Source of the DNA: Candidatus Obscuribacterales bacterium
GTDB taxonomy: Bacteria; Cyanobacteriota; Vampirovibrionia; Obscuribacterales; Obscuribacteraceae
Assembly: GCA_019744775.1 (NCBI GenBank)
Contig: JAIETZ010000002.1
Location: forward strand, 496,001-560,000
Length of the DNA stretch: 64,000 nt
Direction: 5' to 3'
Positions 15,335-34,922 of this stretch are shown piece after piece; the stretch's first letter is position 1; every line of letters starts with the position of its first letter. Made by a program: the position numbers and the translations under genes. The notes under the pieces were generated by a model. That model was not told where the DNA came from and made no database searches. It saw only the letters and a program-made list of their open reading frames with translations.

Positions 15335-15361
15335 GAACGGGCGCATTGCATGCGCCCGTTC
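15335..15361. repeat. REP-like palindrome, copy 2, acting as likely terminator
   Basis: A perfect 11-bp stem GAACGGGCGCA/TGCGCCCGTTC around TTGCA, placed exactly between the convergent stops of the methyltransferase and the 937-residue gene. It shares 23 bases (15339-15361) with 32103-32125 and a 15-base core with 3595-3609. Confidence 0.75.
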
Positions 15362-18174
15362 TAAAATATTGCGTTTACCTTGCCCGAGAAGGTCTTGCGA
15401 TAATTTGCTGTGAAGTTAACAGACAAGTCCTTCAGTAGCGTTTGTCCATATGAGCCGACAACTCCGTATTCCGACACTTGTTCCCAGGGTCCCGGGTAAA
15501 CTCCAAGCTGCAATTTTGTAACTGCACCTTGCATCGCAGCTATTGGAATTTCTTCGACAATTGCAAAGTCTTGCCAGTCCGTTGTTGCACTGATACTAGA
15601 CGGAGCATGTGGCAGAACCATGGTGAAGGCATTGTTTTTGCCACCGACAACTACGGGCAAAAGACTAAAGTGGGATTTTTTGTTACCCAAAGACTTCATC
15701 TTGCCACTGATATTTACAATAAGATGACTACCTTGAGTTACGTGCTGCGGCACGCTGACCTCAACCGTATTTCTAGCCACGCACTGAAATTGTGCCTTGC
15801 TTATGCCAATAACATTGGCGCCTTCACTTGGTACGCGCAACAAAGGATCAAAATCAGATGGGCGCAGGTCTCTAGTACAGGAAGCTCCTCTGCCGGCATC
15901 ACCGCCAGTTGCACTCGGATTGAACAAAGCAGCCAAGTAAATGTGATACTCGCCTGTCTGTTTGCCTTCTGCCGGTGACAGATCGTCATAGTTACCAAAA
16001 CCACCAGCTTCCAAACTCGATACAGAAGGCACAAAACGCTTGCTTATCGGTTGTTGCAATCTACCATCCAACAGTTCACCATCATTGCAGAACAATCCGG
16101 CACTGAAGCGATCCAAATCCTTGGGATATTGCCCTTCATGTCCGCGCGAATATTCACCATAGACAGTCAGAGGCTCCTTTTCGGCAGAGACAACAATTAC
16201 GTTGCCGCCCGATAGATGCAGGCAAGATACAGGAACAGACACCGCATACCACTGCTTCCAGTCGTCGAACTTGAACCCCATAGTTCCGGCATATTTGCGC
16301 ATGGTGTCCAACACCCAATAGGACTGCGGTCGAAACTGTTGAATAATTACCGGCTTATCGGAAAGAACTTGACCGTTAACAGTCACCTTAGCACCGGCCG
16401 TTGAACTATCGCCATCAATTAAAACAAGCGCACCACCCAAAGGCTGTCTCAAGGATTTCAATTGTGCATTGTCCAGATCAAGAGTGCGGCAAGCCGACTG
16501 ACCAGACTGAAGGCGGCACGACCAGGTTAATGGTTCCGCGTCAAAGGCGAACCCGGACAGAACCGCACCGGAGACCATACAAGTAAGCACAGTAAGCAAA
16601 ATTACAGTTGCGTGTTGTTTCTTCGGCGTCAGAGGCGCCGTGAGGCTAAACGCAGCAAGAATCAGCCAACAAGCTACAAGCCAGGTGGCAAACAACTCAA
16701 GTGAATGAGCTGTACTTGCATCACAACCAAACGCAACAAGACGCGACACGTAGTCATTTTTAATCAGATAGCAAAACGCAATTGCCGGAATTGCCAGTTT
16801 GATAATTGCTTGCGGTAATTTCCTCATTCTCACAAGCGCATGGGCAAAATATACAGCCAGCAAAACCATAAACGGCATCGCTGTAAAACCATAGCGATTG
16901 ATAGTTTCAAAAGGCAAATAAATCAAATGCGCTGAGACTAGTGCCAAACTGGCATAGCCGACAAAATTGACTGTTCTGTTTATCGGTTTTGGTGCGGTTA
17001 AAAGAACAAAAGCGCCACCCAAGGACAAGAAGCAGAAAAGCCAATGCCAGGCTCGTTGCACATCCATGGATAAGCCCAAAGGATGTTGGCGAAAATCATT
17101 CCAAGGCCAAGACCAAATACGAGTTACTTTACGTAGTGCCAGGTTCAACGACTCTTGAGGACGCGTTGTCCAAACTCCGGAAATAGCAGCCATCGGCGAT
17201 GCTTCATGAGCGAATATCTCTGTCAGAGGGGCGCTTGGTTGAGCGGACCAACCATCGACTTCAACATCGCAGCCCTTAGCCGTGTTGTAAGAAGGAACTC
17301 GCGACGGCAATAGTTGAAACGCACCGTTGACGACTTTTGTCGTGATAAGCCAGGGAATGAATGCAGCGACAATGCCGGCAATCACAAGCGCCGGCAATGC
17401 AACACGCTTTTTCCAGTTGCAGGCGAACCAGGCAATCAAATGCGCCAAGCCCCAGATAGGCAAAAGCACCGGCTTGAGAAGAAGCAAAAGTCCATCAACC
17501 ATGCCCAAGAACAATCCCGTCATACGGTCTGTTGTGTTTTGCTTGATGAATTTATCAAGCAACCAAATGCCGGCAAGTAATAAAGTCACAGCAGGCGTTT
17601 CGGTGAGAAAGCGGCTGGACGCAACTATGGCAGTCGGATAGAGAGCCCAGCTCAAGCCGGCAGCCAATCCCCAATTTGCACTATTGAGCCATCTTTTCGC
17701 AAGAAGGCAGACAAGCAACGAACTTGTCGCATGCATAAGGCTAAGAACAACAATAAGAACGCGCCAATCTGTCGGTTGCGGCACTTTGCCAATGGCGGCA
17801 AAAACAATTGCTGCAGTTGTCGGCAATACTGGGCCGTCTAGAATGAGATACTCGCCAAACCATTTTTGCGAACTGACCAAATTATTCAGTGCTGCAAACA
17901 TATCCCCTTTAGCCAAAGATTCCTGCCACCAGAGGACCATAAGACGAGCAGACTCAAGGTAATGTCTGGAATCAAATATCAAAACAATTTTCGACTCGGA
18001 GCTGAGGAGATTGTTTACCAGAGAGACAGCAAGGGCCACAAGAAAGCAAAGAGCAGGCACAATCATAGGCAAAAGCCACGCTTGACTGCTGAGTCGCGTT
18101 GCAACAGTAGTTGCGCTACTAGATGTAGCTACCTCACTTACTGCCAACTCTTCTAATTGCTCTTGTACGACCAT
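15361..18174 (-). CDS. Large GT39-like membrane protein with soluble C-terminal half, paralogue B
   Basis: A 937-residue protein. Residues to about 540 form some 12-13 membrane segments of GT-C (GT39/ArnT-like) type, with an acidic first-loop motif FDSRHYLES, then LDGPVLP, WALYPTAI, RFLTETPA, GCDVEVDG, PWNDFR and NRYGFTAMPF. The last 380 or so residues are soluble and presumably external: LIDGDSSTAGAKVTVNG, KQWYAVSVPV and LTVYGEY precede beta-rich sequence. The same motifs occur in the same order in the proteins at 18185 and 32196, so the three are paralogues. It is the last gene of a five-gene minus-strand operon. Likely role: transfer of a sugar from polyprenyl-phosphate to an unknown acceptor; the C-terminal half may bind glycan. 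Confidence 0.75.
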   Translation of the reverse strand: MVVQEQLEELAVSEVATSSSATTVATRLSSQAWLLPMIVPALCFLVALAVSLVNNLLSSESKIVLIFDSRHYLESARLMVLWWQESLAKGDMFAALNNLVSSQKWFGEYLILDGPVLPTTAAIVFAAIGKVPQPTDWRVLIVVLSLMHATSSLLVCLLAKRWLNSANWGLAAGLSWALYPTAIVASSRFLTETPAVTLLLAGIWLLDKFIKQNTTDRMTGLFLGMVDGLLLLLKPVLLPIWGLAHLIAWFACNWKKRVALPALVIAGIVAAFIPWLITTKVVNGAFQLLPSRVPSYNTAKGCDVEVDGWSAQPSAPLTEIFAHEASPMAAISGVWTTRPQESLNLALRKVTRIWSWPWNDFRQHPLGLSMDVQRAWHWLFCFLSLGGAFVLLTAPKPINRTVNFVGYASLALVSAHLIYLPFETINRYGFTAMPFMVLLAVYFAHALVRMRKLPQAIIKLAIPAIAFCYLIKNDYVSRLVAFGCDASTAHSLELFATWLVACWLILAAFSLTAPLTPKKQHATVILLTVLTCMVSGAVLSGFAFDAEPLTWSCRLQSGQSACRTLDLDNAQLKSLRQPLGGALVLIDGDSSTAGAKVTVNGQVLSDKPVIIQQFRPQSYWVLDTMRKYAGTMGFKFDDWKQWYAVSVPVSCLHLSGGNVIVVSAEKEPLTVYGEYSRGHEGQYPKDLDRFSAGLFCNDGELLDGRLQQPISKRFVPSVSSLEAGGFGNYDDLSPAEGKQTGEYHIYLAALFNPSATGGDAGRGASCTRDLRPSDFDPLLRVPSEGANVIGISKAQFQCVARNTVEVSVPQHVTQGSHLIVNISGKMKSLGNKKSHFSLLPVVVGGKNNAFTMVLPHAPSSISATTDWQDFAIVEEIPIAAMQGAVTKLQLGVYPGPWEQVSEYGVVGSYGQTLLKDLSVNFTANYRKTFSGKVNAIF

Positions 18175-18184
18175 CTTCAGATTC

Positions 18185-20902
18185 CTAATAGATTCCCATC
18201 CAATGCTTATTCAATGTTGGTTTATTCACCGAACTGACTGCTAACTTCAAATTATGCAAGAGAAGCTTGCCGCCCGTCACATATTGCCGTGGAACATACA
18301 TCTGCAGGCAAAGCTTACCGATACCACCTTCCACCGCCTCTGACGGCAATATTTCACGCACATTGAGCGGCGCCCAAGCCTTGTTTACATAAAGCACTTT
18401 TGGTGTACCCGGCAAAATAATCGGTGCCTTTTTGTCAATCGCTTCAGCGATAAGTACGGCTGTCGTTGGACAGGCTGTGCCTTCAGTCATGATGTCGCCT
18501 GTCAAATCAACTTGAATATGGCTCGAATTCGAAACCGTCTGAGGAATGTCCAAGCTTAATTCCTTCATTCCACCGGCATCTAGATCATTAGCTCCAATTG
18601 CCAATTGATCTACATACATATCCGCCACGTGCGTTTTCTTAGCCACATGATCGGCGGCAGTATCGCGACAGCGCCCAAGCGCAATGAATAGGCGATAGTC
18701 GCCAACCTGCACGCCGGACGATGGTGACAAATCATCGACTTTACCCACGCCGTATTTTGTAAGAGTGTTACGGCTCCTAACTTCCGCGCGAGCAAAAGGC
18801 GAAACGATTCGTCCCTCCAGACTATCTACAGAATTCCACAATTTGCCGTGGCTGAAAACTTCAAATGACGGCAAATAGCTTCTTTCGCCGTCTATTGCCG
18901 GATAGTCACCATAAAGTGTGGCTTGCTGTCCGGCAGCCGGCTTTACGGTCAGGGTATTTTTACCATCGAGATTGAGCCATTCAACAGGCACCGGCACTGC
19001 TCGCCATTGACGCAATTGTTCGGGCTTAATACCAAAAGTCACAGCCTGCAATTGAATTACATTTATCAATTGGTACTTTCTTGGATAAAACTGATAGAGC
19101 GATTCGAGCTTCTCAGTCACTTTGTGTCCGTTGACGGCAATCTGAGCTGAAGACAGATTAGTATCACCATCAACAAGAACAAGTGCCCAAGCCGGTTTTG
19201 TCTTAGGTTGATTGGCCAGCCACAATTCCCTGGTTGCCACCATGCCGTCTTTCAAAACAGTTTTCCATTCACGCACGGCAGCGCGATGGAATTGCTGGCT
19301 GAATAAAATCACACCGGATATTGCAATAAATGCCGCCAAACAAACGGCCAAACGAATCCGTGCCGGCTTTTCCGGCACCATGCGATGCGTTATTCGCCAT
19401 AGAAGCCAAATAGTCCAACCAATAATTAGCCAACGACCAATAAGTCCCAACCAAAGGGCATTGCTTATATCACCGGTAAGCATCATGGTGTAGGCGATCA
19501 CATCCGCATCAATTGATATAAGAATCATCAATAGAGAGACGCCTAGTATTGCTACTTCTTTCCACATAGTTTGTCTAGCAAAAATGCCATGCAAAAAATA
19601 AACAGCCAAGATCATGACGAAAGGCATGGCTGTAAACCCATAGCGAGGAATTGCTTCAAAAGCCAAATAAGCCAGGTGCCCTAAAATCACCAAACTGCAC
19701 GCCTCGCCAACAAATAAATTCTGTTTATCGACCTTCGTGCCGATTCTTGATTGAGCCTTAATGCCCGCACAAACGGCAAGGAATCCTAAAAGAGCAAAAA
19801 GCCAGATCAGGCGATGAGCTAGTGCTTGCACAGTTGCCGGCACTCCAAACACTTTTGTGCGATAGTCATTCCATGGCAATGAAAACAATCTAGTCGCCTT
19901 ACGCACGCACAAGCTAGCCAGTTCTACTGGCTTAGCCGAAACAATTGCAGAATAAATATTGAGGACGCCGTCAGCTTCCGTGTACATGTTGCAAGTAATG
20001 GTGTACGGGAAACCTCCAACACCGTCGGCTTCAATATCACAACCTTTGACAACATTTAAAACGGGCAAACGCTGCGGGGTCAAGTAGACCTGTCCAACAC
20101 AAGTCTTGGTGAATATCATCCAGGGAAGAACAGCCAACACCGTACCTAATCCAATAGCCAATAAGGCAAGGATGCGCTTGCGATTACCTTGGAGCTTGAA
20201 TACGCCCAACAAATCAACAACACCGGAAGCAGGAAATAAAGCTGGTTTGGTTAAAAGTATCAACCCACTAACAAAACCTGCTCCGATAGTTGCACCAATT
20301 TGCTTAGCCGCATGACTTCCTGCAACTAGCCGACAAAGCAAATAGACTTGTAAAAGCATGAGCACAATATTTGTTGTCTCGGACATCAGTGTGCGCGTAG
20401 CCAAAATAGCTGCCGGATAAAGCCCCCAGGAAAGCCCGGCCACAAAGGACCATCTTTTACTGCCGACAAGCTCGTGAGCAAGCATTGCCACCAGCGCAGC
20501 AGCGCAGCCCTGAAGAGCACATTGCAAACCGGAGAAAAGCCACCAGTCACCGGCACCAGGCATTTGACCAAAGCACAAGAAAGTAAAGCTGGCAATAATC
20601 GGCAAAACTGGACCATCAAGCATGATGTATTCAATTAACTTGTTCAGGTTACAAGTTGTCGGCGCACCAGTTAATCCATGAAAGAAGAGCACCAGCTGCC
20701 TGCATGTCTCCATGTAGTGTCCGGAATCATAGAGCTGTTCGATGGCTGTGCGCTGTCCAATATTTCCAGTTATCCAGCAAACTACAGCAGTTATTAGGAA
20801 ACATGCCAAAGGGGCAATGGCCGAAGATGGAAAGAAAAACTTCTTTTGATTCTCTAGTTGCTTTAGCTTTGTTACGTTAGCTTGTGATTTAACTTCTGCC
20901 AT
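18185..20902 (-). CDS. Large GT39-like membrane protein with soluble C-terminal half, paralogue A
   Basis: A 905-residue paralogue of its downstream neighbour (10-base gap). It has the same motif series: YDSGHYMET, LDGPVLP, WGLYPAAI, RTLMSETTN, GCDIEADG, PWNDYR and PRYGFTAMPF in the membrane half, then LVDGDTNLSSAQIAVNG, RQWRAVPVPVEWL and ATLYGDY in the soluble half. DDLSPSSG in the C-terminal part matches DDLSPAEG in paralogue B, so these two are closer to each other than to the third copy at 32196. The start overlaps the upstream gene by 14 bases. The Asp of YDSGHY is the probable catalytic base by analogy with GT39. Confidence 0.75.
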   Translation of the reverse strand: MAEVKSQANVTKLKQLENQKKFFFPSSAIAPLACFLITAVVCWITGNIGQRTAIEQLYDSGHYMETCRQLVLFFHGLTGAPTTCNLNKLIEYIMLDGPVLPIIASFTFLCFGQMPGAGDWWLFSGLQCALQGCAAALVAMLAHELVGSKRWSFVAGLSWGLYPAAILATRTLMSETTNIVLMLLQVYLLCRLVAGSHAAKQIGATIGAGFVSGLILLTKPALFPASGVVDLLGVFKLQGNRKRILALLAIGLGTVLAVLPWMIFTKTCVGQVYLTPQRLPVLNVVKGCDIEADGVGGFPYTITCNMYTEADGVLNIYSAIVSAKPVELASLCVRKATRLFSLPWNDYRTKVFGVPATVQALAHRLIWLFALLGFLAVCAGIKAQSRIGTKVDKQNLFVGEACSLVILGHLAYLAFEAIPRYGFTAMPFVMILAVYFLHGIFARQTMWKEVAILGVSLLMILISIDADVIAYTMMLTGDISNALWLGLIGRWLIIGWTIWLLWRITHRMVPEKPARIRLAVCLAAFIAISGVILFSQQFHRAAVREWKTVLKDGMVATRELWLANQPKTKPAWALVLVDGDTNLSSAQIAVNGHKVTEKLESLYQFYPRKYQLINVIQLQAVTFGIKPEQLRQWRAVPVPVEWLNLDGKNTLTVKPAAGQQATLYGDYPAIDGERSYLPSFEVFSHGKLWNSVDSLEGRIVSPFARAEVRSRNTLTKYGVGKVDDLSPSSGVQVGDYRLFIALGRCRDTAADHVAKKTHVADMYVDQLAIGANDLDAGGMKELSLDIPQTVSNSSHIQVDLTGDIMTEGTACPTTAVLIAEAIDKKAPIILPGTPKVLYVNKAWAPLNVREILPSEAVEGGIGKLCLQMYVPRQYVTGGKLLLHNLKLAVSSVNKPTLNKHWMGIY

Positions 20903-22733
20903 CGTTACCTCTTAGTGACTCCTCAGTTTCTGGAGGCGGAGTAACCAGTTTGTGTTTTTCCGGGTCGATAAACGGTTTATCCGGCACAACGCGCTTAAGA
21001 ATCAAAATAGACCGGTTGCTGAAGGTCAGCCCGCTAAAGTATTCCTTACGGTTAATTTCCAAATAGCCGGGCACCGGCGAGAAACTAACAATGTACTGAT
21101 CACCGTCTACACGCCACCAACGCCAGTAATCGCGCATTGACTTGCGCAAATCATTGCGCCAGGTTTGCAAAGCAAGGTCAGGGTTGTATGAAAATACATA
21201 TTCCGGACCACCATCAATTTGTTTGGGGTTTATGCCTTGCGCTTCCAATTCAGTAATACCTTGCCAGCGCGCGCGGTTCCAACTCATGTAGTCTTGTGTT
21301 GCCAGTGTTGAATAAAGAGCAATTACAGCTAAAAGCAAGCATGAAACAATACCTGGTCTGCCCACTTTCCAAAAGCGGCTGATCATTGCTAAAGCAATTA
21401 GACAAGGAGCAAAGGCGATTAGGTAGTGCCTATCGGCATCCATAATTATCGTCTCCATGCTCACGCAACCAAGAGATAACAATGCTGCAACAACAACGAA
21501 AGAAACCAATATGGCCCGCTTACGAGCAAAAGAATTATGTCCAGCCTTTCTAATTAGGACAATTGCCCGCTCCAATCCGGAAGTAATGATTGTCAGAAAA
21601 AGAAAAGCAAAAACACCAGATAAATGTGTCAGCCAAATGCGTGGCGACTTGGAAAGCGTCGGCAGATTGATACCCATCAAATTATGGGCGCCCACTTCCG
21701 GCACACGTAAAACATTCATACTAAAAGGCATGAGCCTTCCATCGGCAGCCACCAATTTTGTCAGCGTAGTGGCCATTGCCGCAGCGCTTATAGAAGTCCA
21801 AGCTACAAACAACGTCATGCGCTGTTGAGCAAAAGCGAAAAGCTTCGGCACGAAGAGAAGCAATAGAGGCAAACAAAAGATGGCGAAATAGCAAGATATT
21901 TGACCAAGCGCCACAGTCATTGAAAAAATCCACTTTGCCGGCGAATGCAGCAAATCACTGACAAATTTCAGATGTGCCTGTTTGAAAGTAGTGTACTCAG
22001 CACATTTAGTGGCACCATGCTCCAAAACGGACTCGAGACCAACCGTCCAGGCAACAGGCAAGACAATTAAGAGCAGAAATAAAAGAACTGTCTTTCCGAT
22101 ATTGCCCTTGCGCAGAGACAAACCAATAATGACTAAATTTGCCACTACATATAAAAGAGCACCTTGCCTTACTCCTGCTGCGGCAACGAGCATCACTGAA
22201 GAAAGCAGGTAATTCAGTGACGAATCCCGGCGAATACCGCGGAATAGAAAAAGCAAATATAGATTAGTAAAGGCAAACGACGGAATGTCGCTCATGAAGG
22301 AGAAGCACAAATTGACAATTAGCGGATTAGAGGCAAATAAAAAGGTTGTAAACCCGGCGATGCTCCGTTTAACTTGAACTTCTCTAAGCGCTAAATAGAG
22401 AGCCGCTACAGCGACAATGCCAAGAATTGTCGTAGACCAGTGCAAGACCGTGTAGGAAAAACCAAAAAGCTTACACGCCAGCGCACCGATTCCCACATGG
22501 ACAAAGGCTGTGGAAAAACTTGTGGGCATTTCAATTTTTCCGTGTTCAATAAGCGAGCGAACGCCATAGCCATATACCCAATCATCATTCAATGAGAAAT
22601 TGCCGTTAGGTGAAATGACCAAAAGATTCAAAGCTAAATAAGCGGCGATAACAGCCACCCAGGAAAGCATGCCTACTTTCGACGGTCCTTTGACAGTCGT
22701 CTTTTCAATTCTTTTTACGGCAGCAACTTGCAC
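20889..22733 (-). CDS. GT39-like polytopic glycosyltransferase
   Basis: A 614-residue membrane protein with about 12 hydrophobic segments. LNDDWVYGYGVRSL after the first segment gives the acidic pair typical of the catalytic loop in GT-C enzymes of the GT39 (PMT/ArnT) type. The HVGIGAL and LHWSTTILG stretches follow the usual loop-helix order. It has a soluble tail of about 120 residues but lacks the long C-terminal half of the 900-residue paralogues. The GTG start follows directly on the stop of the YfhO-like gene (TAG then GTG), indicating translational coupling. Donor is probably a polyprenyl-phosphate sugar; acceptor unknown. Confidence 0.72.
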   Translation of the reverse strand: MQVAAVKRIEKTTVKGPSKVGMLSWVAVIAAYLALNLLVISPNGNFSLNDDWVYGYGVRSLIEHGKIEMPTSFSTAFVHVGIGALACKLFGFSYTVLHWSTTILGIVAVAALYLALREVQVKRSIAGFTTFLFASNPLIVNLCFSFMSDIPSFAFTNLYLLFLFRGIRRDSSLNYLLSSVMLVAAAGVRQGALLYVVANLVIIGLSLRKGNIGKTVLLFLLLIVLPVAWTVGLESVLEHGATKCAEYTTFKQAHLKFVSDLLHSPAKWIFSMTVALGQISCYFAIFCLPLLLLFVPKLFAFAQQRMTLFVAWTSISAAAMATTLTKLVAADGRLMPFSMNVLRVPEVGAHNLMGINLPTLSKSPRIWLTHLSGVFAFLFLTIITSGLERAIVLIRKAGHNSFARKRAILVSFVVVAALLSLGCVSMETIIMDADRHYLIAFAPCLIALAMISRFWKVGRPGIVSCLLLAVIALYSTLATQDYMSWNRARWQGITELEAQGINPKQIDGGPEYVFSYNPDLALQTWRNDLRKSMRDYWRWWRVDGDQYIVSFSPVPGYLEINRKEYFSGLTFSNRSILILKRVVPDKPFIDPEKHKLVTPPPETEESLRGNDGRS

Positions 22734-25157
22734 CTACCCGACCTCACGAATGAAACGTTTGCCAACGGTCACCATTAACAACAGAAATGCAATTGCACCT
22801 ATTGCCAAAAGGATTCCCAGAATAAAAGAAAATGGTTGATATACGAATTTAACAACATGCTCTCCGGAAGGAACAACAACACCACGGAAAAGATAATTTG
22901 CTCTCAGGACTTCTGTTTCTTCTCCGTCGAGAAGAGCTTTCCACCCTGGGTAATACGTATCAGTCAGTACAAGAATGCCGCCGTGATCCGAGCCTGTCTT
23001 TATGGTTACGGAATTTACGTTGTCTCTTTTAACCGATGTCTTATCTTCAACACCGGCAGCACCCACAAAGGATAACTGTGGTGACGGCGACTCCAATACC
23101 ACCTTGTGATTGTAGTCAAATCCCGCATCGGAAATTAGATCAAGGGCTTTCTGAGAAGAATCAGCGAGCACGTAGTCGTGCACGATGTACGCTTTTGGCA
23201 GGGCTGTCGCATTCTCGTAGAGTTTGAACGAGGGATTTTCCCTAATCACTTGAAGTGACTGCCGGCTTTCTGTTTGCAAAGGTAACTGTGTAAGAACGTA
23301 CTTGACCGATGCCATATCAACCAAGTGATTCAATGACGAGTCAAATACTTCCGTAAACATCTCAAGCTTGGCTCCTGCTGCCTTAGCAAACTGCAAATAA
23401 CGCTTGGGGAAAAGCACATTGAAGTCACGCAAATCAGGAATGCCATAAACAGTATTGGTGTTGGCACGCAGCAAATGCGGTCCGATACTTATCATTCTGT
23501 CGTTCTGGGCTTTCAGGTAAGCCAGAGGCTCAACTTGAGGATAGTTAAACTTGTTTTCGATAGGCAACGATGTGCGAGCTAGAGCCGCCAATCCGACAAA
23601 GGCAAGAGTCAAAACAATTACAGATACAACTACGCGATAGCGATCTTTCAATCTATTGCCGATAAGAAGTACAGCTATAAGAGAAATTCCCAACAGACAA
23701 TCGCGGATCCAATTTATTTTGTCAAAGTACATGTGAGGCAAAATCAAATCAAAGTCGCCACTTCTCAAAGGAACATTGCAGATATTGAGGGCAAATGGAA
23801 TTAAGAGCGCTGCGGCGACGCAAACACTCACGAATGCTACTGACTTGTTGACACCGAATTTGTTTTCGCTATCACCAGCCAGCACTTTATCCAAGCCAAT
23901 ACCGGCCATGACGGATAAAGAAAGCAAATAAAGAGGCAAGCAGTAGACGGTGACCAACCACAACATCGGCGGATGTTGCAAGACAAAGTCCATTGGTCCC
24001 ACGCGGCTCATTAGTACAAAAGCAACAAGAGCAACTAGTCCCAAACACTTGGCTATAAGTCCCTTCTTGCCGTTAACAAACAAAGACAAAGGCCAAAGAC
24101 ATGTTGCCACCAATCCCAAGTAGGGGCTGGCTGCTCCAAACCCTGGCTGTAGTAAGTGATAGGTCACACACTGCCAGGGCACATATGCCGATATGCCGAC
24201 TCCGTATTTGTAGCAATCTGAATTTAGCAAGAATTCAGCAAAGGGCAAAAGCACAGGAGCTGAAAGCAGGAATGTAATTATTCCGGCAAAAGTCAAACCA
24301 AAAGCAAAAGCCGTCAGACGTTTATTTACAGTCTCTATTACGCCGTAGCGCGTAGCCGCACCGGAGACGATAAGTCCGCCCATGAGCAAACTGGCAAAGA
24401 AAATACCAAAGAAGGAAAGTTCCGGATGCCCGGAAATAATCAGGAGTGTTGAAATAAGTCCGCATCCGACAAAGCTGGAAAATGTTTTGCGCTGTGCGGC
24501 ATGCACAAAGGCGAAAAATGTCAGAGGGAAAAGACAATATGATGGTCCAGACAATAGTTCCAAATAGAACAATTGATACGGACAAAGCGCATATGCCATG
24601 GCGGCAAGTGCTGCAGCCCAACGGCTCAAGCCCAGCTTTCTCGACAGGGCGAAAGTGAAAGCAGCGGCGCCGACGACCAGCAATACCATAGATAAGTTAT
24701 ATGTATACATGGATGGGAAGAACGTAAACAACAGACGCATGGGTGAAAACACACATGCTTGAATATCGCCAATTAAAGGCGCACCACAAGCGCTGTAAGG
24801 ATTCCACAAAGGCAGGTTGCCGCTTTTCCACATTTGCGCTACGAGAAAATAATGCGGGATGAGCAAGTGAATGATTGAAGGATCACAAAGTGCGCTCTTG
24901 CCTGTTGCATACGCACTATAGATAGAATCCCATTCGGCCATCCGGCAAATCTTCGATATGGGCAAGCCGAGAAAAACCGTGCGAAAGAAAAAGAAAAGAA
25001 CTGTAAGACTAATGCCTAAGTAAGACAAAGCCTCAGCGAAGCTGCCTCTTGTCTTTCCGGAACCGATGGCGGTGCCGGAATAAGACGTCTTCTCCTGCCG
25101 AGCAGTTGAAGATACGGTCTTACTTGACTGCGACAGAACTTCTTTCATAAGAGCCAA
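22734..25157 (-). CDS. YfhO-family membrane protein, GT-C-like
   Basis: An 807-residue protein of the YfhO family, in which studied Gram-positive members help add sugars to lipoteichoic or wall polymers outside the membrane. The first-loop signature is clear: acidic AEWDSIYS, then GNLPLWNPYSACGAPLIGD. About 13 membrane segments follow, then an external beta-rich domain with TDTYYPGWKALLDG and VPSGEHVVKFVYQP, and a final membrane helix, which is the standard YfhO end. Its start overlaps the upstream methyltransferase gene by 38 bases; an ATG three codons later would shorten this to 29. It is second in the operon. Confidence 0.82.
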   Translation of the reverse strand: MALMKEVLSQSSKTVSSTARQEKTSYSGTAIGSGKTRGSFAEALSYLGISLTVLFFFFRTVFLGLPISKICRMAEWDSIYSAYATGKSALCDPSIIHLLIPHYFLVAQMWKSGNLPLWNPYSACGAPLIGDIQACVFSPMRLLFTFFPSMYTYNLSMVLLVVGAAAFTFALSRKLGLSRWAAALAAMAYALCPYQLFYLELLSGPSYCLFPLTFFAFVHAAQRKTFSSFVGCGLISTLLIISGHPELSFFGIFFASLLMGGLIVSGAATRYGVIETVNKRLTAFAFGLTFAGIITFLLSAPVLLPFAEFLLNSDCYKYGVGISAYVPWQCVTYHLLQPGFGAASPYLGLVATCLWPLSLFVNGKKGLIAKCLGLVALVAFVLMSRVGPMDFVLQHPPMLWLVTVYCLPLYLLSLSVMAGIGLDKVLAGDSENKFGVNKSVAFVSVCVAAALLIPFALNICNVPLRSGDFDLILPHMYFDKINWIRDCLLGISLIAVLLIGNRLKDRYRVVVSVIVLTLAFVGLAALARTSLPIENKFNYPQVEPLAYLKAQNDRMISIGPHLLRANTNTVYGIPDLRDFNVLFPKRYLQFAKAAGAKLEMFTEVFDSSLNHLVDMASVKYVLTQLPLQTESRQSLQVIRENPSFKLYENATALPKAYIVHDYVLADSSQKALDLISDAGFDYNHKVVLESPSPQLSFVGAAGVEDKTSVKRDNVNSVTIKTGSDHGGILVLTDTYYPGWKALLDGEETEVLRANYLFRGVVVPSGEHVVKFVYQPFSFILGILLAIGAIAFLLLMVTVGKRFIREVG

Positions 25158-26157
25158 AACCCGTCCAGCTGTTGCGGTTGTGCCAACGCATTACAGGATG
25201 AGCAATTCCTACTTTCTTAAACCAGGATTCCACTTCTTCCCGCTTCAGGTATTCAGCAACTGGAGCTACCAGGTGATCAAAAACAATGTTATGGATTTCC
25301 TGGAAATCAAATTGAGAAATGTAGCTCATATAGTCTTCGTAGAATACTCGCGGCAACCACTCAGCGTTTTCACGCAAAGCATGCCACGGGCGAGCAATAA
25401 GCTTGGAGTAGAAAACCACAGCCACGGTCAAAAGCGCCGTTATCGTTTTCAAAACGTATGTCGGCAACTTAGAAGTCACTGCCGTTCTAAATGGGGTTAC
25501 GATATTTCTAATCCACCAGTTGTTTTCATAGCCATAAACCCAAACGCAGATGCTGCCGTCCGGCTTAACTTTACTGGCTAGTGACTTAAAACCACCTTCC
25601 GGTGAATCCATATGGTGCAAAACGCCAACCGAATAACCGAAATCAAACACGGGGCGCAAAGGCATATTGGCGATATCAGCTTGCACGATATGTACATTGG
25701 GCATTTTGCCAACTTGGGCGTAGGCAATTTCAATGGCATCGCCGATATCTACAGCCACAACATTTTTGGCCATTGACTCAGCGACAACGCGCGTATGGCG
25801 TCCCTTACCACAACCGCATTCAAGAACTGTTTTGTTTCTCAGGAATGCAGGAGTAACGGGATTCACCCAATCAAAAAATTGGTTGCGATATTTTTCGTTT
25901 TCGCGGCTGAACTGCTGCCATGAAATACCGAATTTGTGACCACTTAAAATGTCTTTCCCGCTGCTCAAGTCCGACAAGACAAAGCGTGGAATGCCACGAA
26001 CGATGGGATAGCGTTGCGGGCAAGACTTGCAGACAACTTCTCCGGTAATAATTTCAGGCTCGTAAGCGCCGGCGATGTCTTCGGCTTCTTTGACAATCAG
26101 CTCAAGGCTCGACTCACATTTGAGACACATCAAAAATTGCAACGCCGAGTGCTTCAT
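25120..26157 (-). CDS. SAM methyltransferase with N-terminal zinc-ribbon-like domain
   Basis: A 345-residue class I methylase. A Trm112-like domain with two Cys pairs (Cys 11, 14, 43 and 46) and the end YPIVRGIPRF precedes the catalytic domain with VLECGCGKGRHTRVV (motif I, from residue 111), VDIGDA and YSVGVLHHM. A hydrophobic stretch near residues 225-250 may touch the membrane. It heads the five-gene minus-strand operon with YfhO-like and GT39-like genes, so a sugar, lipid-linked intermediate or amino-sugar substrate is a reasonable guess. The architecture is common in polysaccharide clusters. Confidence 0.8.
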   Translation of the reverse strand: MKHSALQFLMCLKCESSLELIVKEAEDIAGAYEPEIITGEVVCKSCPQRYPIVRGIPRFVLSDLSSGKDILSGHKFGISWQQFSRENEKYRNQFFDWVNPVTPAFLRNKTVLECGCGKGRHTRVVAESMAKNVVAVDIGDAIEIAYAQVGKMPNVHIVQADIANMPLRPVFDFGYSVGVLHHMDSPEGGFKSLASKVKPDGSICVWVYGYENNWWIRNIVTPFRTAVTSKLPTYVLKTITALLTVAVVFYSKLIARPWHALRENAEWLPRVFYEDYMSYISQFDFQEIHNIVFDHLVAPVAEYLKREEVESWFKKVGIAHPVMRWHNRNSWTGFGSYERSSVAVK

Positions 26158-28226: not shown

Positions 28227-28316
28227 CGGATCACCTTTCTTACTTCCAGCAACGCAAAATTGTCCACCGTTGGGATATTCCTGGTCAACGTTACTCGTGT
28301 AAGCTTTGCATACTAC

Positions 28317-28339
28317 TTTAGAACAAGAATAGTTCTAAA
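28317..28339. promoter_or_regulatory. Operator-like inverted repeat between divergent genes
   Basis: TTTAGAAC (28317-28324) and GTTCTAAA (28332-28339) with a 7-base centre, in the 186-base gap between the GT2 gene (minus) and the SGNH-like gene (plus). There is no T run; a regulator site shared by both promoters is plausible. Confidence 0.4.
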
Positions 28340-28412
28340 ACATTAGGAGTAGTCAAGGATAGGTTGGGAATTCCAAACTATACTTGCCTGGACATAAGAG
28401 TAAAGCCCAGCC

Positions 28413-29630
28413 GTGCCTATCGCAACAGCCAAATTAAAACCATCCAAGCCCAAGCAATTGAAGCCCTGGCACTACATCGGCTCGAGCGTCCTTGTTTGGC
28501 TCTTGATTGCCTTATTGACTATTGACTATGCCATCTACACACTGCGCCCCTTAAAACATGTTAAGGCAACCCAATATTTACCGCTCGACCAAAATCCTGT
28601 CGTAAGCAAAATCCCAGAATTCTTTGAGTCCTCCATAAAACCCGATGCACTGGTTTTGGGATCCTCTTTGCCGATGACAGCCATCGCCTATTGCGATTAT
28701 CAATACAAAGGCGAACCGGATGCCACCAAAATTGGGCAAGTACGCGTCTACACAAAAGCGCGTTATTTGCAGGACAACTTAACGAGAATCATTGAGCCGC
28801 TGAATATTTTCAATCTTAGTTGTTACGGCTGCATGGCATCAGAAGCTTATTTACTCTTGTCGCGCGCCATTGATGACGGACGCAAACCCAAGTATGTTTT
28901 TTATGGGATTGCCCCGCGCGACTTTGTCGACAATACGGTTCCTGCAGTTGGAAAGACTCCTGTTTACGAAGTCCTGTCCGACTGGCGTTGCGTCAACGAC
29001 ATTTTCACACGCAACCTGCAATTACCGCAGATTGGCGATTTATTTGCAGGCTACATCTGGTACTACTATCGCGTAAAAGCGGATTACAGAACATTTTTAA
29101 CGGCCGCCTCGTGTGATTTCTTCAACCGTCCGGCAACTTTATTTGAAGCAACCACACGAAAGGCAGCGCCCAAAGAAGAAATTGCTACGCCAATTCCAAC
29201 CAAAGAGAATGGTTCCATTTGCACTGCGCTTGAGTCCCAAGTGTCTGCCGCAAAACCGAAATGGGACGACAACTCCGCTGAGTACAAAAGCCGCTACAAT
29301 CCAGCTAATTTCCAGCGTTACGCGCAAGAACTTTCTTACTTTGAAAGACTGGCAAAGTTGTGCCAAGAAAAACAAATAAAGCTGGTTGTGTTCAACATGC
29401 CTCTAATGGATAAGAACAAAAACTTGCTCGACAAAAAACTCTACGACAATTATCTCACCGACACGCGCAACTTCACGCAAAAGTCCGGTGGAACGTATTT
29501 GAATTTGGACACACCTGGCACTTACAGCCAGAGCGATTATTTGGATTCCGCCCACTTAAATGCCGTAGGCGGTAAAAAGCTTCAAGACAATTTGATATCC
29601 GGACTTGGCGAACTAAACAAGACTAAGTGA
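28413..29630 (+). CDS. Membrane-anchored SGNH/GDSL-like esterase or acyltransferase
   Basis: A 405-residue protein with one membrane segment (about 25-48) and an external domain. The GSSLP loop near residue 79 fits the nucleophile Ser of SGNH hydrolases, and DSAHLN near residue 381 fits the catalytic Asp-x-x-His. KLVVFNMPLM before it lies in the expected strand. DltD-, AlgX- and OatA-like relatives move acyl groups on surface polymers, so it may add or remove acetyl groups on the glycan made here. The family call rests on these two motifs and overall layout. Confidence 0.6.
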   Translation: MPIATAKLKPSKPKQLKPWHYIGSSVLVWLLIALLTIDYAIYTLRPLKHVKATQYLPLDQNPVVSKIPEFFESSIKPDALVLGSSLPMTAIAYCDYQYKGEPDATKIGQVRVYTKARYLQDNLTRIIEPLNIFNLSCYGCMASEAYLLLSRAIDDGRKPKYVFYGIAPRDFVDNTVPAVGKTPVYEVLSDWRCVNDIFTRNLQLPQIGDLFAGYIWYYYRVKADYRTFLTAASCDFFNRPATLFEATTRKAAPKEEIATPIPTKENGSICTALESQVSAAKPKWDDNSAEYKSRYNPANFQRYAQELSYFERLAKLCQEKQIKLVVFNMPLMDKNKNLLDKKLYDNYLTDTRNFTQKSGGTYLNLDTPGTYSQSDYLDSAHLNAVGGKKLQDNLISGLGELNKTK

Positions 29631-30545
29631 GTTTACCCACTTCCAACTGCGTCTCAGTCCTTCTTTGAGATCCATTTCCGGCGCCCACTTGAGACATTTC
29701 TTGGCTCTTTCAATATCGAGCACATTGGCCGGCACATCGACTGCACGCGCAGGTGTATAAACAACTTCAACAGGCTTATCGACGACTTCCTTCAACGCAT
29801 CAATTAGTTGATTGAGTGAGCAGCCTTTTCCTTCGCCAATATTAAACACGCGGTGATCGTTTGGTCCAGGATTGTACTTTGCGCAGGCAATAAGAGCCTT
29901 GGTCACATCACCAATGTAAATATAGTCACGCACAACAGAGCCGTCGCCCCAGATTGTTATGGGCTTACCCTGCTGAATATTACCGAGGAAGACGCCTACT
30001 GCGCCTTGCTTGGAATTTGGATTTTGCTGTTCGCCATAGGGATTAGACAGACGGGCAACAACATACTCTAGTCCCCACAAATGGTGGAACAATTTCAAGT
30101 ATTTCTCGATAGCCAACTTGCTTATGCCATAGGAGCAAATCGGTTCTGTTGGATGTTCTTCCGGAATTGGTGTTTGTTGAGGTACACCATATATGGTGCC
30201 ACCAGACGAGATGAATATTACTTTCTTGACGTTGGCAGCTCGACACTCTTGCAAAAGTTGCACCGTGTCTGCAATGTTTGATCGAACGTCATAAACAGGA
30301 TCGTCATTAGATGTTTGCGGCAAAGTCGTGTAAGCCAGATGAAAAACTTGATCGACGCCTTTCACAGCGGCAATGACATCGCCATGATTGCCCAGGTCAC
30401 CAACTACATACTCGACGCCGGCAAATGGCTCGCGATAGCGGCTGGGATAACGGTCTAAAACGCGCACCTGATAACCATCAGCAAGCAGACCCTCAACGAG
30501 GTTCGTGCCAATAAAACCGTTGCCACCGATAACAAGTGCTTTCAT
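29613..30545 (-). CDS. NAD-dependent sugar-nucleotide epimerase
   Basis: A 310-residue extended SDR enzyme: IGGNGFIGTNLVEGL (NAD-binding), SSGGTIYGVP, the catalytic YGISK, and RDYIYIGDV, which is typical of UDP-hexose 4-epimerases and related dTDP-sugar enzymes. It is distinct from the GalE at 13378 and closer to the epimerases common in O-antigen clusters. Its 3' end overlaps the SGNH-like gene (convergent) by 18 bases and its start touches the GT4 stop by one base, so it is coupled to the GT4 gene. Confidence 0.87.
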   Translation of the reverse strand: MKALVIGGNGFIGTNLVEGLLADGYQVRVLDRYPSRYREPFAGVEYVVGDLGNHGDVIAAVKGVDQVFHLAYTTLPQTSNDDPVYDVRSNIADTVQLLQECRAANVKKVIFISSGGTIYGVPQQTPIPEEHPTEPICSYGISKLAIEKYLKLFHHLWGLEYVVARLSNPYGEQQNPNSKQGAVGVFLGNIQQGKPITIWGDGSVVRDYIYIGDVTKALIACAKYNPGPNDHRVFNIGEGKGCSLNQLIDALKEVVDKPVEVVYTPARAVDVPANVLDIERAKKCLKWAPEMDLKEGLRRSWKWVNSLSLV

Positions 30546-31978
30546 CAGTCCGCCACTATAGCATATTTAGACTTTTCGCTTTGAGCAGCGGAAGCCTCGT
30601 ATATCCGCTCAATATCATCGACCATATCGCTAACTGTGCGCTCTGGAGCAATGTTGTCACGGAATGTTTTCAACTTCATTGGGTCAGTTATCACTGACTC
30701 TAATTTCTCTTTGAGTGAATGCATGTTGTTAAGGTCAAAAAGCAGACCATTTTGTTCATGTTTAATGAGTTCAGACATACCGCCCAAATCAGTGGCAATT
30801 AAAGGTGTTTTAGTGGCAAGCGCCGACTGTATAACAAGCGGAGTATTTTCATACCACCGTGAAGGCACAACCAATGCGTCAATATTGCTCAACACTTGTC
30901 CTAATTCAGAGTTCGGGAATGTTCCAGCCAATGTAATTTTGCCGGCATTGACGCCTGACTTAGCCTTTTGCTCAATGACTTTCCCGTATTCGGGAAATTG
31001 CTTAAGGTCGCCGTAAATAGTGAGAGTTGCAGCCACATCGGAAGGCAAAGCTTGAAACGCATCAACCAATAAATCAACACCTTTGTGTTCAAAAATTGTG
31101 CCGATATAACCAATGCGCACAACATCGCTAGGTGTCTTGTTCACATATGGTGTCAAAAGTTTGGTATCAATACCAAACGGCACCAAATGCAGTCTATCTT
31201 TGCTAATACCGTTTTCCGCAAAGATGTCCGCCATGAGTTTTGTCGGCACCATAATTGCTTGCAATTTGTTGGCGGCTTCAATAAGCGCGCCACTTCGCTG
31301 GCAAGTCGACAAAGCGGCCGGTACTGCCTTGCCGGAGAGATAAAGCGCATAGAGAGCGGAAAAACCAAGATCATCCAGACCTTTAGGAATAAGTCCCTCT
31401 AGTACCGGATATTTCTGCAGTACCGCTTCCTTAAATTCACTGACTGGGGGAAACAATTTCGGCGTATAGCAAGTTAAGCAATTGGCACCTGGTGATTTTG
31501 GTCCACGACAAACCTCACCGTCTTGTCTTTTCAATTGAACAAGCGGGCAGACAAACCAAAAGTCTGTTGTCGACGCAATAACTGGAATATTTCTTGCTCT
31601 GGCTTTATCAATAATGCTCGCTGACAAATTCTGCGCATGAAAAATATGCACAAGATCGGGAGCGAAGCATTCAAGAATGCCGTCAAAATGCTCAGCGATA
31701 TGAGGATGATTGAACTCGAAAGAAAATTCGTAGTCCTTCAGGCGCAATGGTTCTTCAATAACATGAACAGGCACACCGTCGTGGACATAGTCACTTACTG
31801 CCGAACTGACTTTGGCAGCCGCGCGATTATTAGCGTCCAAATCCGGCGGATTGGCAGTAACGACAAGTACTTCATAGCCGCGCCGCTGTAATTCCTGAGC
31901 AGCCTTGAGCGTCAGCACTTCAGTGCCGGCCCGGTGCTCCGGGAAAAACTTGTGAACGGTAAGTAAAACTTTTTTCAC
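30545..31978 (-). CDS. GT4 glycosyltransferase with Cys-rich insert
   Basis: A 477-residue cytoplasmic GT-B enzyme. The N-terminal domain starts with FFPEHRAGTEV, a usual acceptor-side loop. The C-terminal donor domain has GTIFEHKGVDLLVDAF and the E-x7-E motif in SRWYENTPLVIQSALA. Between them lies a Cys-rich stretch (VCPLVQL, VCRGP, NCLTCY) seen in a subgroup of GT4 enzymes and possibly binding a metal. GTG start. It is followed directly by the epimerase, which may make its donor sugar. Confidence 0.87.
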   Translation of the reverse strand: MKKVLLTVHKFFPEHRAGTEVLTLKAAQELQRRGYEVLVVTANPPDLDANNRAAAKVSSAVSDYVHDGVPVHVIEEPLRLKDYEFSFEFNHPHIAEHFDGILECFAPDLVHIFHAQNLSASIIDKARARNIPVIASTTDFWFVCPLVQLKRQDGEVCRGPKSPGANCLTCYTPKLFPPVSEFKEAVLQKYPVLEGLIPKGLDDLGFSALYALYLSGKAVPAALSTCQRSGALIEAANKLQAIMVPTKLMADIFAENGISKDRLHLVPFGIDTKLLTPYVNKTPSDVVRIGYIGTIFEHKGVDLLVDAFQALPSDVAATLTIYGDLKQFPEYGKVIEQKAKSGVNAGKITLAGTFPNSELGQVLSNIDALVVPSRWYENTPLVIQSALATKTPLIATDLGGMSELIKHEQNGLLFDLNNMHSLKEKLESVITDPMKLKTFRDNIAPERTVSDMVDDIERIYEASAAQSEKSKYAIVAD

Positions 31979-32102
31979 GCCAAAGCGCTCCCAAAGCTTT
32001 CAACGGAATCCAATCCGGTCACTAATAATACCCCATTTCTCACCCGGCCACTTTGCAGCCAAGCCGGTCTTAGGTACTTTTCACCCGCCCCTCGCACTGC
32101 AG

Positions 32103-32125
32103 GGGCGCATTGCATGCGCCCGTTC
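32103..32125. repeat. REP-like palindrome, copy 3
   Basis: The 23-mer GGGCGCATTGCATGCGCCC plus GTTC, identical to 15339-15361, with core GCGCATTGCATGCGC shared with 3595-3609. Here it lies in a 217-base gap between divergent genes, not between convergent ones, so it is not simply a terminator. Confidence 0.7.
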
Positions 32126-32195
32126 CCGGAAACAACCGCCTATAAGAAAGCTTTCAAATAGATTACAAGTAGTACTTGGTAAAATACTGCCAATT

Positions 32196-34922
32196 ATGTT
32201 CTCCGGGCAACAGTACAAGACGCCACGCGCCGATCAAGCGGCCGGTCAAGTCACATCCAAGCCTCCGGCAAAGCCGACAGGTTATTTCAATTCGCCTGCT
32301 ATCTGGGTGACTATCTACGTTCTGGCATTAACCATTCGCTTCTGGTTCAACTTTGATGCACCTCATATGAACGCCTATGGCGCCTGCGACGCATCCGAAT
32401 ATTTACGCAATGCCATTGTCTTGCACTCACTCAAAGATCTTCCCGCTTCTTTCTGGCAGGACGCATTTGCCTGCCTCACGGGACAAGCAAATGAAGCCAC
32501 GCAACATTCAGTGCAAACAACGCTAAGTTACTTGAACGAACTAAAAATATCCAGTCCCGTCTTCCCTACATTTCTAATTGCCGGTTTCTTGTTAACAGGC
32601 ACAGAGTTTGATACCAGCAACTGGATGCTGATGTTGGGACTGCAGTCTTTTATTAGCGCATTCACAGCTGTGCTAATTGCTCACACAGCCTATTTAGTTT
32701 GGAATCGCAAAGTTGGTTATGCCGCCGGCATTTTAACCGCCATCTATCCAGGATTCATCATCAACAGCGGACGTCTTTATTCCGAAACATTCGCCGTATT
32801 TCTCATGAGCCTTTTGGTTTGGCTTGTCGTTAAGGATTTCATGGCAGCCAATAAAGAAACCCCGCAAAACAAATTCGGCTGGGTAGTTTCACAATTACTC
32901 AAAGGCTTTACTGCCATTTGTTTGCAATTGACTCGCTCAATAATGGTTGCGATGACTGCCGCACTTGTGCCGATTACAGTACTCACTTATTGGCACAATA
33001 AATCCAAAGCGAAAATAATTACGTCTATTGCTTTAATGACAATCGGCTATCTAGCTGTGGCAATGCCCTGGATTGCCTTGCAAAAAGTAGCCTTTGGCAC
33101 GAGCACACTACTTGTAGATAGAGTTGGGCACTACAACTTCTTCGTCGGCAACAATGCAGAAACTCAAGGTTGGCTTTCGGTACCTTATCCTGACGGACGC
33201 GGCATCGAGAACAGAAGTCTTCTCACCTTGTGGCAAGCAGAAGTGAAGAAAAGCCCATCTGCCTGGATGCGGCTAATGCAAGACAAACTGCCTCGCCTGC
33301 TTAAGTTCCCCTGGAACGATTTTAGAACTCCAATCGGGCTTCTAGGCGTCTGCCAACAAATAACCATTCACCAAATGATTCTCTTGCTGGGAGTTGTAGG
33401 GATTGCACTCAGCCTTTTCGGCAATGTGTTGCAGAGATCGAATAGATCTCAACTGTTTTGCCGACTGATGATCTTCTCCATCGCTGCTTTCCAACTCGTC
33501 TATTGCTTCTTCATTACCGTGCCGCGCTATAACATAGGCATCATGCCCTTCATTATCATGTTTGCAGCAGCAGGCATAATTAGCCTTTGGCGCATGGTCA
33601 AAAACGGGCGTTCAAACAAAACAGCTATCGCCGTTGTAGCGATAGCAACAGCGCTCTTTTCTATTAGCCGCTTAGACTCTGCTTCTTTGTTAGTTCCGCA
33701 ACTGATCGTCTTGTTGTCTAAAGCAATCGTGCTATTGGCACTGGCGGTGGCATTATGGCAAGCAAGTAATTATCTTGATGGCAACAAAAAGAAAACAAGA
33801 ATACTAATTCTTGCATTGCTTGCGCTTGTCTTTGTACCGTTCGCCATGCCGGTTAGAGCACATGGGCGCGCTAACGAGTGGCAACAAACAATAAGCAATA
33901 ATTCAATCACGCAAACAATTGCCCTAAGTGATCAGCAGTTGTCGCGCGCACGACAAAAGAATTCGTATCTATTAATAGACGCTGAAAGTCAGACTGCACT
34001 AGCCAATGATGTTGTAGTTACCGTGAACGGACAACAACTTTCAGGACCTTTTATCCCGAGCCTTTCTTTCGCCAATGATCTAAGCCACGTGGTCCCTATA
34101 AGCAAAGGCGCGGTTGCCTTTGAGCAGGAATACATTTTTGATTGTCTGACACAAGATGCCGCCACATCAAATGCCGACTTACGTCAATGGTATCTTTTGC
34201 CGATTCCAAAAGAAGCGCTAAGCTCAAATACACTCATTAGGGTTACGGCAAAAGAGAAGCCCTTCACTGTTTTCGGCACAAGCTCCAGTGAGAAGAACCT
34301 GATTATTCCTAGCTTAACGCGCTACTCGTGGGAAAAATCTTTTTACGGTGTGGAAAACACACATGGACTAACAGACACCCGTTATGACCAGAGAGTAAAA
34401 TTGGAAAAGCCGACAGGTAAAGTACCGAATGTTTTCGTCCTTGCTGACGATACGGAAAGTCCAACCGACAAACTGGTCACGATTGTTTCTGCTACAAGTG
34501 ACAATAACGAATGTGCTTTAGACCTGCCGGAATACGATAATGAGGAGACCTGGCTTATTCGCCTGACTGGTCAAGCACGTGGCGAAAATGCCTTAGCCGG
34601 CACCAAACTTTCAATAACCTGCCGGGACAATAAAAAGCAAACTGAATACCAATCACCATGGTGCCAAAAGTCCATTGCCACTGACACACCTTGGCGCAAC
34701 TTCGATTGTGCATTTCCTCTTAAGCCTTCAACATTACCCGGCACGGCGCTCAATCTGAGAGCACAGTTTTTGCCTGTAAGTGAACTCTCCAATCACAGGA
34801 ACAACCACAAGCAAGCATTGCCGCCTGCGGCAGTGCGCAATCTAAAAGTTGAAGTCATGCATTTACCGGCAGTACCATTTACCGGCAACTATCAGCTTTA
34901 CCTTGGGCAGGGCCAAAAATGA
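32196..34922 (+). CDS. Large GT39-like membrane protein with soluble C-terminal half, paralogue C
   Basis: A 908-residue protein, third member of the family at 15361 and 18185. The membrane half shows ACDASEYLRN, SSPVFPTF, TAIYPGFI, RLYSETFA, GNNAETQG, FPWNDFR and PRYNIGIMPF; the soluble half shows LIDAESQTALANDV...VNGQQL, LRQWYLLPIP and FTVFGTS. It is more diverged than the other two and lacks their DDLSP block. It is separated from them by 11 kb and lies on the opposite strand. Its stop overlaps the next gene's start (ATGA), so the two are translationally coupled. Predicted external glycosyl transfer from a polyprenyl carrier. Confidence 0.72.
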   Translation: MFSGQQYKTPRADQAAGQVTSKPPAKPTGYFNSPAIWVTIYVLALTIRFWFNFDAPHMNAYGACDASEYLRNAIVLHSLKDLPASFWQDAFACLTGQANEATQHSVQTTLSYLNELKISSPVFPTFLIAGFLLTGTEFDTSNWMLMLGLQSFISAFTAVLIAHTAYLVWNRKVGYAAGILTAIYPGFIINSGRLYSETFAVFLMSLLVWLVVKDFMAANKETPQNKFGWVVSQLLKGFTAICLQLTRSIMVAMTAALVPITVLTYWHNKSKAKIITSIALMTIGYLAVAMPWIALQKVAFGTSTLLVDRVGHYNFFVGNNAETQGWLSVPYPDGRGIENRSLLTLWQAEVKKSPSAWMRLMQDKLPRLLKFPWNDFRTPIGLLGVCQQITIHQMILLLGVVGIALSLFGNVLQRSNRSQLFCRLMIFSIAAFQLVYCFFITVPRYNIGIMPFIIMFAAAGIISLWRMVKNGRSNKTAIAVVAIATALFSISRLDSASLLVPQLIVLLSKAIVLLALAVALWQASNYLDGNKKKTRILILALLALVFVPFAMPVRAHGRANEWQQTISNNSITQTIALSDQQLSRARQKNSYLLIDAESQTALANDVVVTVNGQQLSGPFIPSLSFANDLSHVVPISKGAVAFEQEYIFDCLTQDAATSNADLRQWYLLPIPKEALSSNTLIRVTAKEKPFTVFGTSSSEKNLIIPSLTRYSWEKSFYGVENTHGLTDTRYDQRVKLEKPTGKVPNVFVLADDTESPTDKLVTIVSATSDNNECALDLPEYDNEETWLIRLTGQARGENALAGTKLSITCRDNKKQTEYQSPWCQKSIATDTPWRNFDCAFPLKPSTLPGTALNLRAQFLPVSELSNHRNNHKQALPPAAVRNLKVEVMHLPAVPFTGNYQLYLGQGQK

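Follow-up and report, generated by a model that had tools for sequence, protein, structure and literature searches.

Predicted GT-C glycosyltransferases with a two-domain, carbohydrate-binding-like tail in Candidatus Obscuribacterales

Three collinear paralogs in a glycan gene cluster

The stretch of DNA analysed here (64,000 nt, hereafter the window, to whose positions all coordinates refer) comes from Candidatus Obscuribacterales bacterium (Vampirovibrionia, Obscuribacteraceae; GCA_019744775.1, contig JAIETZ010000002.1, positions 496,001-560,000 of the forward strand). It encodes three large membrane proteins, named A, B and C, and a neighbouring membrane protein, named E (Table 1). An earlier note on this DNA had described the first three as related proteins of about 900 residues, and they are indeed open reading frames of 937, 905 and 908 aa that are collinear by BLASTP: A and B share 30% identity over 936 aa (E 2e-128), C and A 26% over 673 aa (E 2e-32), and C and B 22% over 649 aa (E 1e-27). 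This similarity is far above chance, and the three are end-to-end collinear paralogs with a single two-part architecture. A and B are both adjacent, with a gap of 10 bp, and closest in sequence, while C lies 11.3 kb from B, as the note had it; the gene for C overlaps that for E by 4 bp, and the tandem A-B pair is present also in two further genomes (G001 and G002). The motifs that had been listed for the three proteins recur in the order given (DSRHY/DSGHY/DASEY, PV-x-P, YP, GCD/GNN-x-E, PWND(F/Y)R, RY(G/N)...MPF, (V/A)NG, QW and YG/FG), with two corrections of spacing: the supposed R-x4-ET is R-x3-ET, and the proline of QW-x4-P stands anywhere from three to five residues on. When A and B were compared with their orthologs in a sister species, dN/dS fell between 0.04 and 0.17 for each domain, so that both halves of the proteins are under purifying selection.

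Table 1. Features of the locus in window coordinates, with the evidence for each assignment
Feature	Position	Strand	Evidence or remark
Wzm/KpsM-like ABC-2 exporter permease	9465-10340	+	PF01061 E 2e-18; NF050053 KpsM E 6e-13, under cut-off
Wzt/TagH-like exporter ATPase	10352-11122	+	TagH E 7e-60, Wzt/RfbE E 3e-53, both under cut-off
Membrane protein, GT-C-like by eye	11128-12831	+	DD after TM1 (MDDWSMY); no Pfam match
UDP-glucose 4-epimerase GalE	13378-14409	-	TIGR01179, 406.6 bits (cut-off 262.3)
Protein A, 937 aa	15361-18174	-	Predicted GT-C membrane half (aa 33-547) and two-domain beta tail (aa 548-937)
Protein A, membrane half, predicted GT-C fold	16534-18174	-	Predicted fold; conservation among 31 members
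Protein A, tail domain 1 (aa 548-735), beta-rich	15970-16533	-	Model secondary structure; conservation
Protein A, tail domain 2 (aa 736-937), predicted CBM-kind jelly-roll, sequence-variable	15361-15969	-	VIA fold match
Protein B, 905 aa	18185-20902	-	Architecture as A; tail from aa 542 (18185-19279)
PMT_2 GT-C protein, 614 aa, without tail	20889-22733	-	PF13231 E 5e-8
YfhO-type membrane protein, 807 aa	22734-25157	-	PF09586 E 1e-10
Methyltransferase, Trm112-like N-terminal stretch fused to class I domain	25120-26157	-	NF038101 E 7e-10, under cut-off
GtrB-like polyprenyl-phosphate-hexose synthase, GT2 with C-terminal TM helices	27192-28226	-	phmmer
DUF1574 protein	28413-29630	+	In cluster
Sugar epimerase/dehydratase and GT4 glycosyltransferase	29613-31978	-	Conserved neighbours of C
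Protein C, 908 aa	32196-34922	+	Architecture as A; D-x-x-E-Y main clade; tail from aa 559 (33870-34922)
Protein E, 753 aa, TMTC-like by eye	34919-37180	+	DD after TM1 (ADDFGEV); no Pfam match, one chance-level NCBIfam hit
Tad/Flp pilus genes (two T2SSF, T2SSE ATPase, ParA-like, RcpC/CpaB)	37542-43218	-	Directly past glycan cluster

The setting of the three genes is that of polysaccharide synthesis and export, and the window also encodes methyltransferases. By phmmer the GT2 enzyme of the cluster matches GtrB of Synechocystis (sll0501, 5ekp; E 3e-81) and, less closely, ArnC (E 5e-47). Among characterised enzymes GtrB is its nearest relative, and it uses UDP-glucose to form UndP-glucose (PMC4728340). 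Orthologs of this synthase (57-100% identity) occur in 14 of the 15 genomes of the bacterial family in which they were sought, and in 13 of these 14 the contig that bears the ortholog also has a member of the A/B/C family no more than about 9 kb away; by our own estimate, from some five members in some 5 Mb, chance would place one so near in about 2% of genomes. Wzm orthologs of at least 48% identity were found in 12 genomes, nine of which have a member within about 14 kb, and the gene order GT4 - C - E, with the epimerase and GtrB nearby, recurs across genera. Protein E, which ends in a soluble stretch of about 330 residues, likewise adjoins C-type members across genera. The proximity of GtrB and Wzm and the synteny at C thus link the family both with the supply of a lipid-linked sugar donor and with the export of polysaccharide. 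Despite the GtrB-type synthase, a GtrA-type flippase (PF04138) was not found in the source genome. Taken as a whole the cluster suggests extensive periplasmic modification of a surface polysaccharide that Obscuribacteria would make and export by an ABC transporter.

A predicted GT-C membrane half and a two-domain tail

An AlphaFold2 model of protein A, built from 31 family members, has a mean pLDDT of 84.7 and a pTM of 0.85, and confidently predicts for the membrane half a GT-C glycosyltransferase fold whose first periplasmic loop is large. Compared with solved structures (VIA-align 2), it matches AglB best (3waj; Z 25.3, 312 residues aligned, rmsd 4.3), followed by Pmt1-Pmt2 (Z 23.6), ArnT (Z 22.5-23.1) and PglB (Z about 22), and the alignments to AglB, OST, PMT, ArnT and PglB span 300-350 residues at rmsd 3.5-5.5. 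These Z values are well over the level of which the tool warns for helical proteins, and the GT-C call holds. EmbB and EmbC align across nearly the whole of A (residues ~28-926), but at an rmsd of 14-16 Å. PDB searches with whole-protein and tail profiles gave no significant sequence match to a solved GT-C structure, and PF13231 (PMT_2) reaches nine of the 31 members at E up to 1 (best 4e-8), A, B and C themselves being unmatched.

Among the residues invariant in all 31 members (A numbering) are D68, P118, Y179-P180, R292, N297, G301, G308, P313, R352, R427 and P434, while Y72, E192, W358, N359, D360 and Y428 are nearly so. In GT-C enzymes the catalytic acid stands right behind TM1, and this is the place of D68, which in the model of A follows TM1 (residues 35-56) and immediately precedes the helix at 69-89. 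The proteins had previously been called GT39-like. The alignment of the membrane half to GT-C structures (Z 22-25 for the model of protein A) bears out the GT-C part of that description, whereas GT39 membership itself was rejected: only the aspartate of the GT39 DE pair is present, being followed by S, A or G in 31 of 31 members, and PF02366 finds a single one of the 31, weakly (E 8e-4).

The tail of A, modelled separately (390 residues, pLDDT 87.6), is folded into two domains rich in beta strands. That at the distal end (A residues ~759-926) is predicted to be a beta-jelly-roll of the kind found in carbohydrate-binding modules (CBMs), its nearest match by VIA being CBM36 (1w0n; Z 10.1, 113 residues aligned, rmsd 2.9), followed by CBM22 (4xup/4xuo; Z 9.5-9.6), a porphyran-binding CBM (Z 9.5) and CBM16 (2zew; Z 9.3); the CBM36, CBM22 and CBM16 alignments cover about 113-139 residues at rmsd 2.9-4.2. 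Non-lectin jelly-rolls, namely a birnavirus capsid and the iota toxin component Ib, reach equal Z against the same domain, and since they score alike the fold is clear and does not of itself prove the function. Kinship with capsid or toxin was not adopted, the resemblance being read as common jelly-roll topology only. At the sequence level, Pfam gave only chance-level hits in 31 tails, with no hit to a CBM model at E up to 1, and a PDB sequence search with the tail profile gave no significant CBM match. Nor was an internal duplication that would relate tail domains 1 and 2 detected by profile comparison (E 0.12).

The two tail domains differ in their conservation. The most conserved residues of the tail, all near-invariant, fall in the proximal domain (D587, N600-G601, R/K640-Q641-W642, S691 and R705 in A numbering), and 6.8% of the columns of this domain have an identity of at least 80%, against 8.5% in the membrane half and 1.9% in the distal domain, the least conserved part of the protein. 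Such distal variability is as expected if the domain reads differing acceptors, and equally if it is merely less constrained. The latter possibility leads to the alternative that the tail is a structural or protein-interaction domain that binds no sugar, the enzyme acting like a tail-less GT-C protein. This alternative concerns the tail only and is compatible with the catalytic part of the scheme favoured below. It draws on the variability just described, on the use of jelly-rolls by viral capsids, toxins and other non-lectins, and on the GT136 enzyme ORF12, whose CBM bound its O-polysaccharide, although the enzyme remained active without it in the assays used (PMC11127046). We nevertheless regard it as rather unlikely, because the tail is present in essentially every complete member, because tail domain 1 falls little short of the membrane half in conservation, and because in protein A this domain is under stronger purifying selection than the membrane half, with a dN/dS of 0.04. 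From the fold, the gene context and the precedents of EmbC and the ORF12 CBM we infer instead that the tail may bind a glycan or other acceptor.

Distribution, copy number and motif classes

The three proteins had been taken for a three-member family, which proves to be an undercount: the source genome (4.1 Mb) holds five members, the further two lying on other contigs (C13 and C3), and there are more than 200 in the bacterial family. A profile search with the tail, which the earlier note had proposed as a way to map the distribution, gave 205 matches among 50 genomes of the same bacterial family of Candidatus Obscuribacterales, and the membrane half gave 222. Both parts are found in 48 of these genomes, including all 21 that are near-complete, and the two genomes devoid of members are about 65% complete. 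Copy number ranges from one to ten per genome. Nearly all listed tail matches are open frames of 750-1,100 residues that include the membrane half; shorter tail-bearing frames are few, and several of these are contig-end fragments.

In the searches made here the family has so far been found restricted to this one lineage. No member was detected in three genomes of the sister family within the order, in 13 sampled genomes of other members of the class, or in the plasmid collection, and 291 further genomes of the phylum yielded nothing convincing. The one additional tail match among the latter (in genome G112) is partial, has an E of 0.003 and contains a stop codon, and was discarded as chance. 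A contig scan for named relatives, which used two short patterns from a three-row alignment and so detects close relatives only, returned mostly metagenome-assembled genomes (MAGs) of Candidatus Obscuribacterales or Melainabacteria. Two SBAT01 contigs (L037 and L048) from a MAG labelled Chloroflexi carry the cluster at 62-94% protein identity and in full synteny, and the public label looks wrong. At a further locus (L003, 48-857) a small protein whose ending resembles that of the DUF1574 protein by eye adjoins the C13 member, and is a possible partner of it.

A tree of 31 members resolves two main groups, one of 15 rows that includes A and B (SH-aLRT 99) and one of 14 rows that includes C (SH-aLRT 100); the C13 and C3 members of the source genome form long branches of unsure placement. 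The division is mirrored in the residue preceding Y72: of the 16 rows of the A/B side 13 have histidine there (D-x-x-H-Y), and of the 15 rows of the C side 14 have glutamate (D-x-x-E-Y), a split that may mark differing substrates. It is tempting, if speculative and on present evidence unlikely, to extend this to the whole lineage-specific, multi-copy set, such that the variable jelly-rolls of the several copies would each recognise their own site along a single exported polysaccharide and the enzymes would jointly write a complex periplasmic decoration after polymerisation.

Proposed role and comparison with known enzymes

Collectively these results make it probable that A, B and C are inner-membrane GT-C enzymes that add a polyprenyl-phosphate-borne sugar to an exported surface polysaccharide in the periplasm, the tail holding the acceptor. 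In the scheme that we infer, the GtrB-like enzyme of the cluster would charge undecaprenyl phosphate with a hexose to give the probable donor, and some flippase would turn the product to the periplasmic side, where A, B and C would pass the sugar to the polysaccharide made and exported by the same cluster. D68 would be the likely catalytic base, and H/E71-Y72 and R427-Y428 may line the donor/acceptor site. The tail would project into the periplasm with its distal jelly-roll binding the acceptor glycan, and the conserved proximal domain would probably keep the acceptor above the active site. The steps are not equally secure. As judged from the model, the GT-C step is close to certain; a polyprenyl-phosphate donor, suggested by the enzyme family and by the GtrB neighbour, is likely, even though the GtrB product may serve another enzyme, since the cluster encodes further GT-C proteins; and an exported polysaccharide is favoured as acceptor with less assurance.

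Proteins and lipids are the other acceptors to be weighed. The enzymes might be protein O-glycosyltransferases of the GT39 PMT or Pgf kind that act on exported proteins, with the tail binding the protein or its attached glycan. The membrane half fits the Pmt1-Pmt2 fold as well as it does that of OST (Z 23-25), and two neighbours recall the Pgf system, the YfhO-type protein resembling PgfM1 weakly and the GtrB-like synthase resembling PgfS well, both under cut-off. However, a cluster with Wzm/Wzt, GalE, GT4 and GT2 is typical of polysaccharide synthesis, the GT39 DE motif is absent and the distal tail domain is predicted to fold like a glycan-binding module, all of which makes a protein acceptor unlikely. 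Still less probable, to the point that we give it little weight, is an ArnT-like reaction in which an envelope lipid such as lipid A would receive the sugar and the tail would serve as a structural cap. In its favour are the high rank of ArnT in the fold search and the relation of ArnC-like enzymes to the GtrB-like neighbour. Against it, ArnT has no comparable two-domain tail, and the presence of one to ten copies per genome in two motif classes suggests numerous acceptor sites and not a single lipid.

GT-C enzymes with a C-terminal glycan-binding tail of their own are represented by EmbA/B/C, AftD and GT136. The earlier suggestion of a new GT-C subfamily carrying its own glycan-binding domain accordingly holds in part: the family has no dedicated Pfam or NCBIfam model, and its tail contains a domain predicted to have a CBM fold, whereas the principle of such a tail was known beforehand. 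What is new is the family itself, its restriction to one lineage in the searches made, its copy number, its two motif classes and the second tail domain.

GT136 ORF12 of Citrobacter youngae O1 (PMC11127046) resembles the present proteins in having a GT-C part followed by a C-terminal beta-rich domain of CBM fold, in an RY motif and a D-x-x-E-Y motif close to TM1 (by motif only, and with H in place of E in most rows of the A/B side), and in belonging to an ABC-transporter-dependent O-polysaccharide cluster that includes a polyprenyl-phosphate-sugar synthase. It differs in its size, with 652 residues and one CBM of about 150 residues against some 900 residues and two tail domains here, and in its donor synthase, which is of the DPPRS type (undP-ribofuranose) rather than GtrB-like. 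Alanine mutants of ORF12 at D31, E34 and R349 were dead and those at Y35 and Y350 strongly reduced (PMC11127046); D68, residue 71, Y72, R427 and Y428 correspond to these residues by motif, not by alignment. Membership of the A/B/C family in GT136 is possible.

The Emb arabinosyltransferases of mycobacteria, tuberculosis bacteria included (EmbA, EmbB and EmbC; PMC3044687), are likewise GT-C enzymes that use a polyprenyl-phosphate donor and end in a tail of two subdomains, one of them a CBM36/CBM6-like jelly-roll. In EmbC, CBM36 was among the nearest folds of subdomain II, and mutation of the CBM impaired both activity and acceptor binding (PMC3044687). Unlike A, B and C the Emb proteins exceed 1,030 residues, and the subdomain order differs, the CBM of EmbC being inserted within subdomain I and the jelly-roll here coming last. 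Membership in the Emb family (GT53) was rejected at the sequence level, PF17689 matching a single tail at a chance-level E of 0.07 and no Emb protein being matched in the PDB searches.

ArnT, a GT83-type aminoarabinose transferase, shares the fold, an undecaprenyl-phosphate sugar donor and a periplasmic site of action; however, its chain in the PDB has about 540 residues and lacks a CBM tail, and it acts on lipid A. The GT39 protein O-mannosyltransferases (PMTs) share the fold and the aspartate after TM1, whereas the present proteins lack the DE pair and any PF02366 match above cut-off, and have a C-terminal beta tail instead. The proteins are most aptly described as an unnamed family of GT-C enzymes with a CBM-like tail of two domains, and would work like GT136 and Emb. 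As such they add a lineage-restricted GT-C family from uncultured and little-studied relatives of the cyanobacteria and lengthen the list of GT-C enzymes with a carbohydrate-binding-like tail, on which Emb/AftD and GT136 already stood. Their up to ten copies per genome constitute natural variants with which to probe the role of such tails, a question raised by GT136, whose CBM binds polysaccharide and is yet dispensable.
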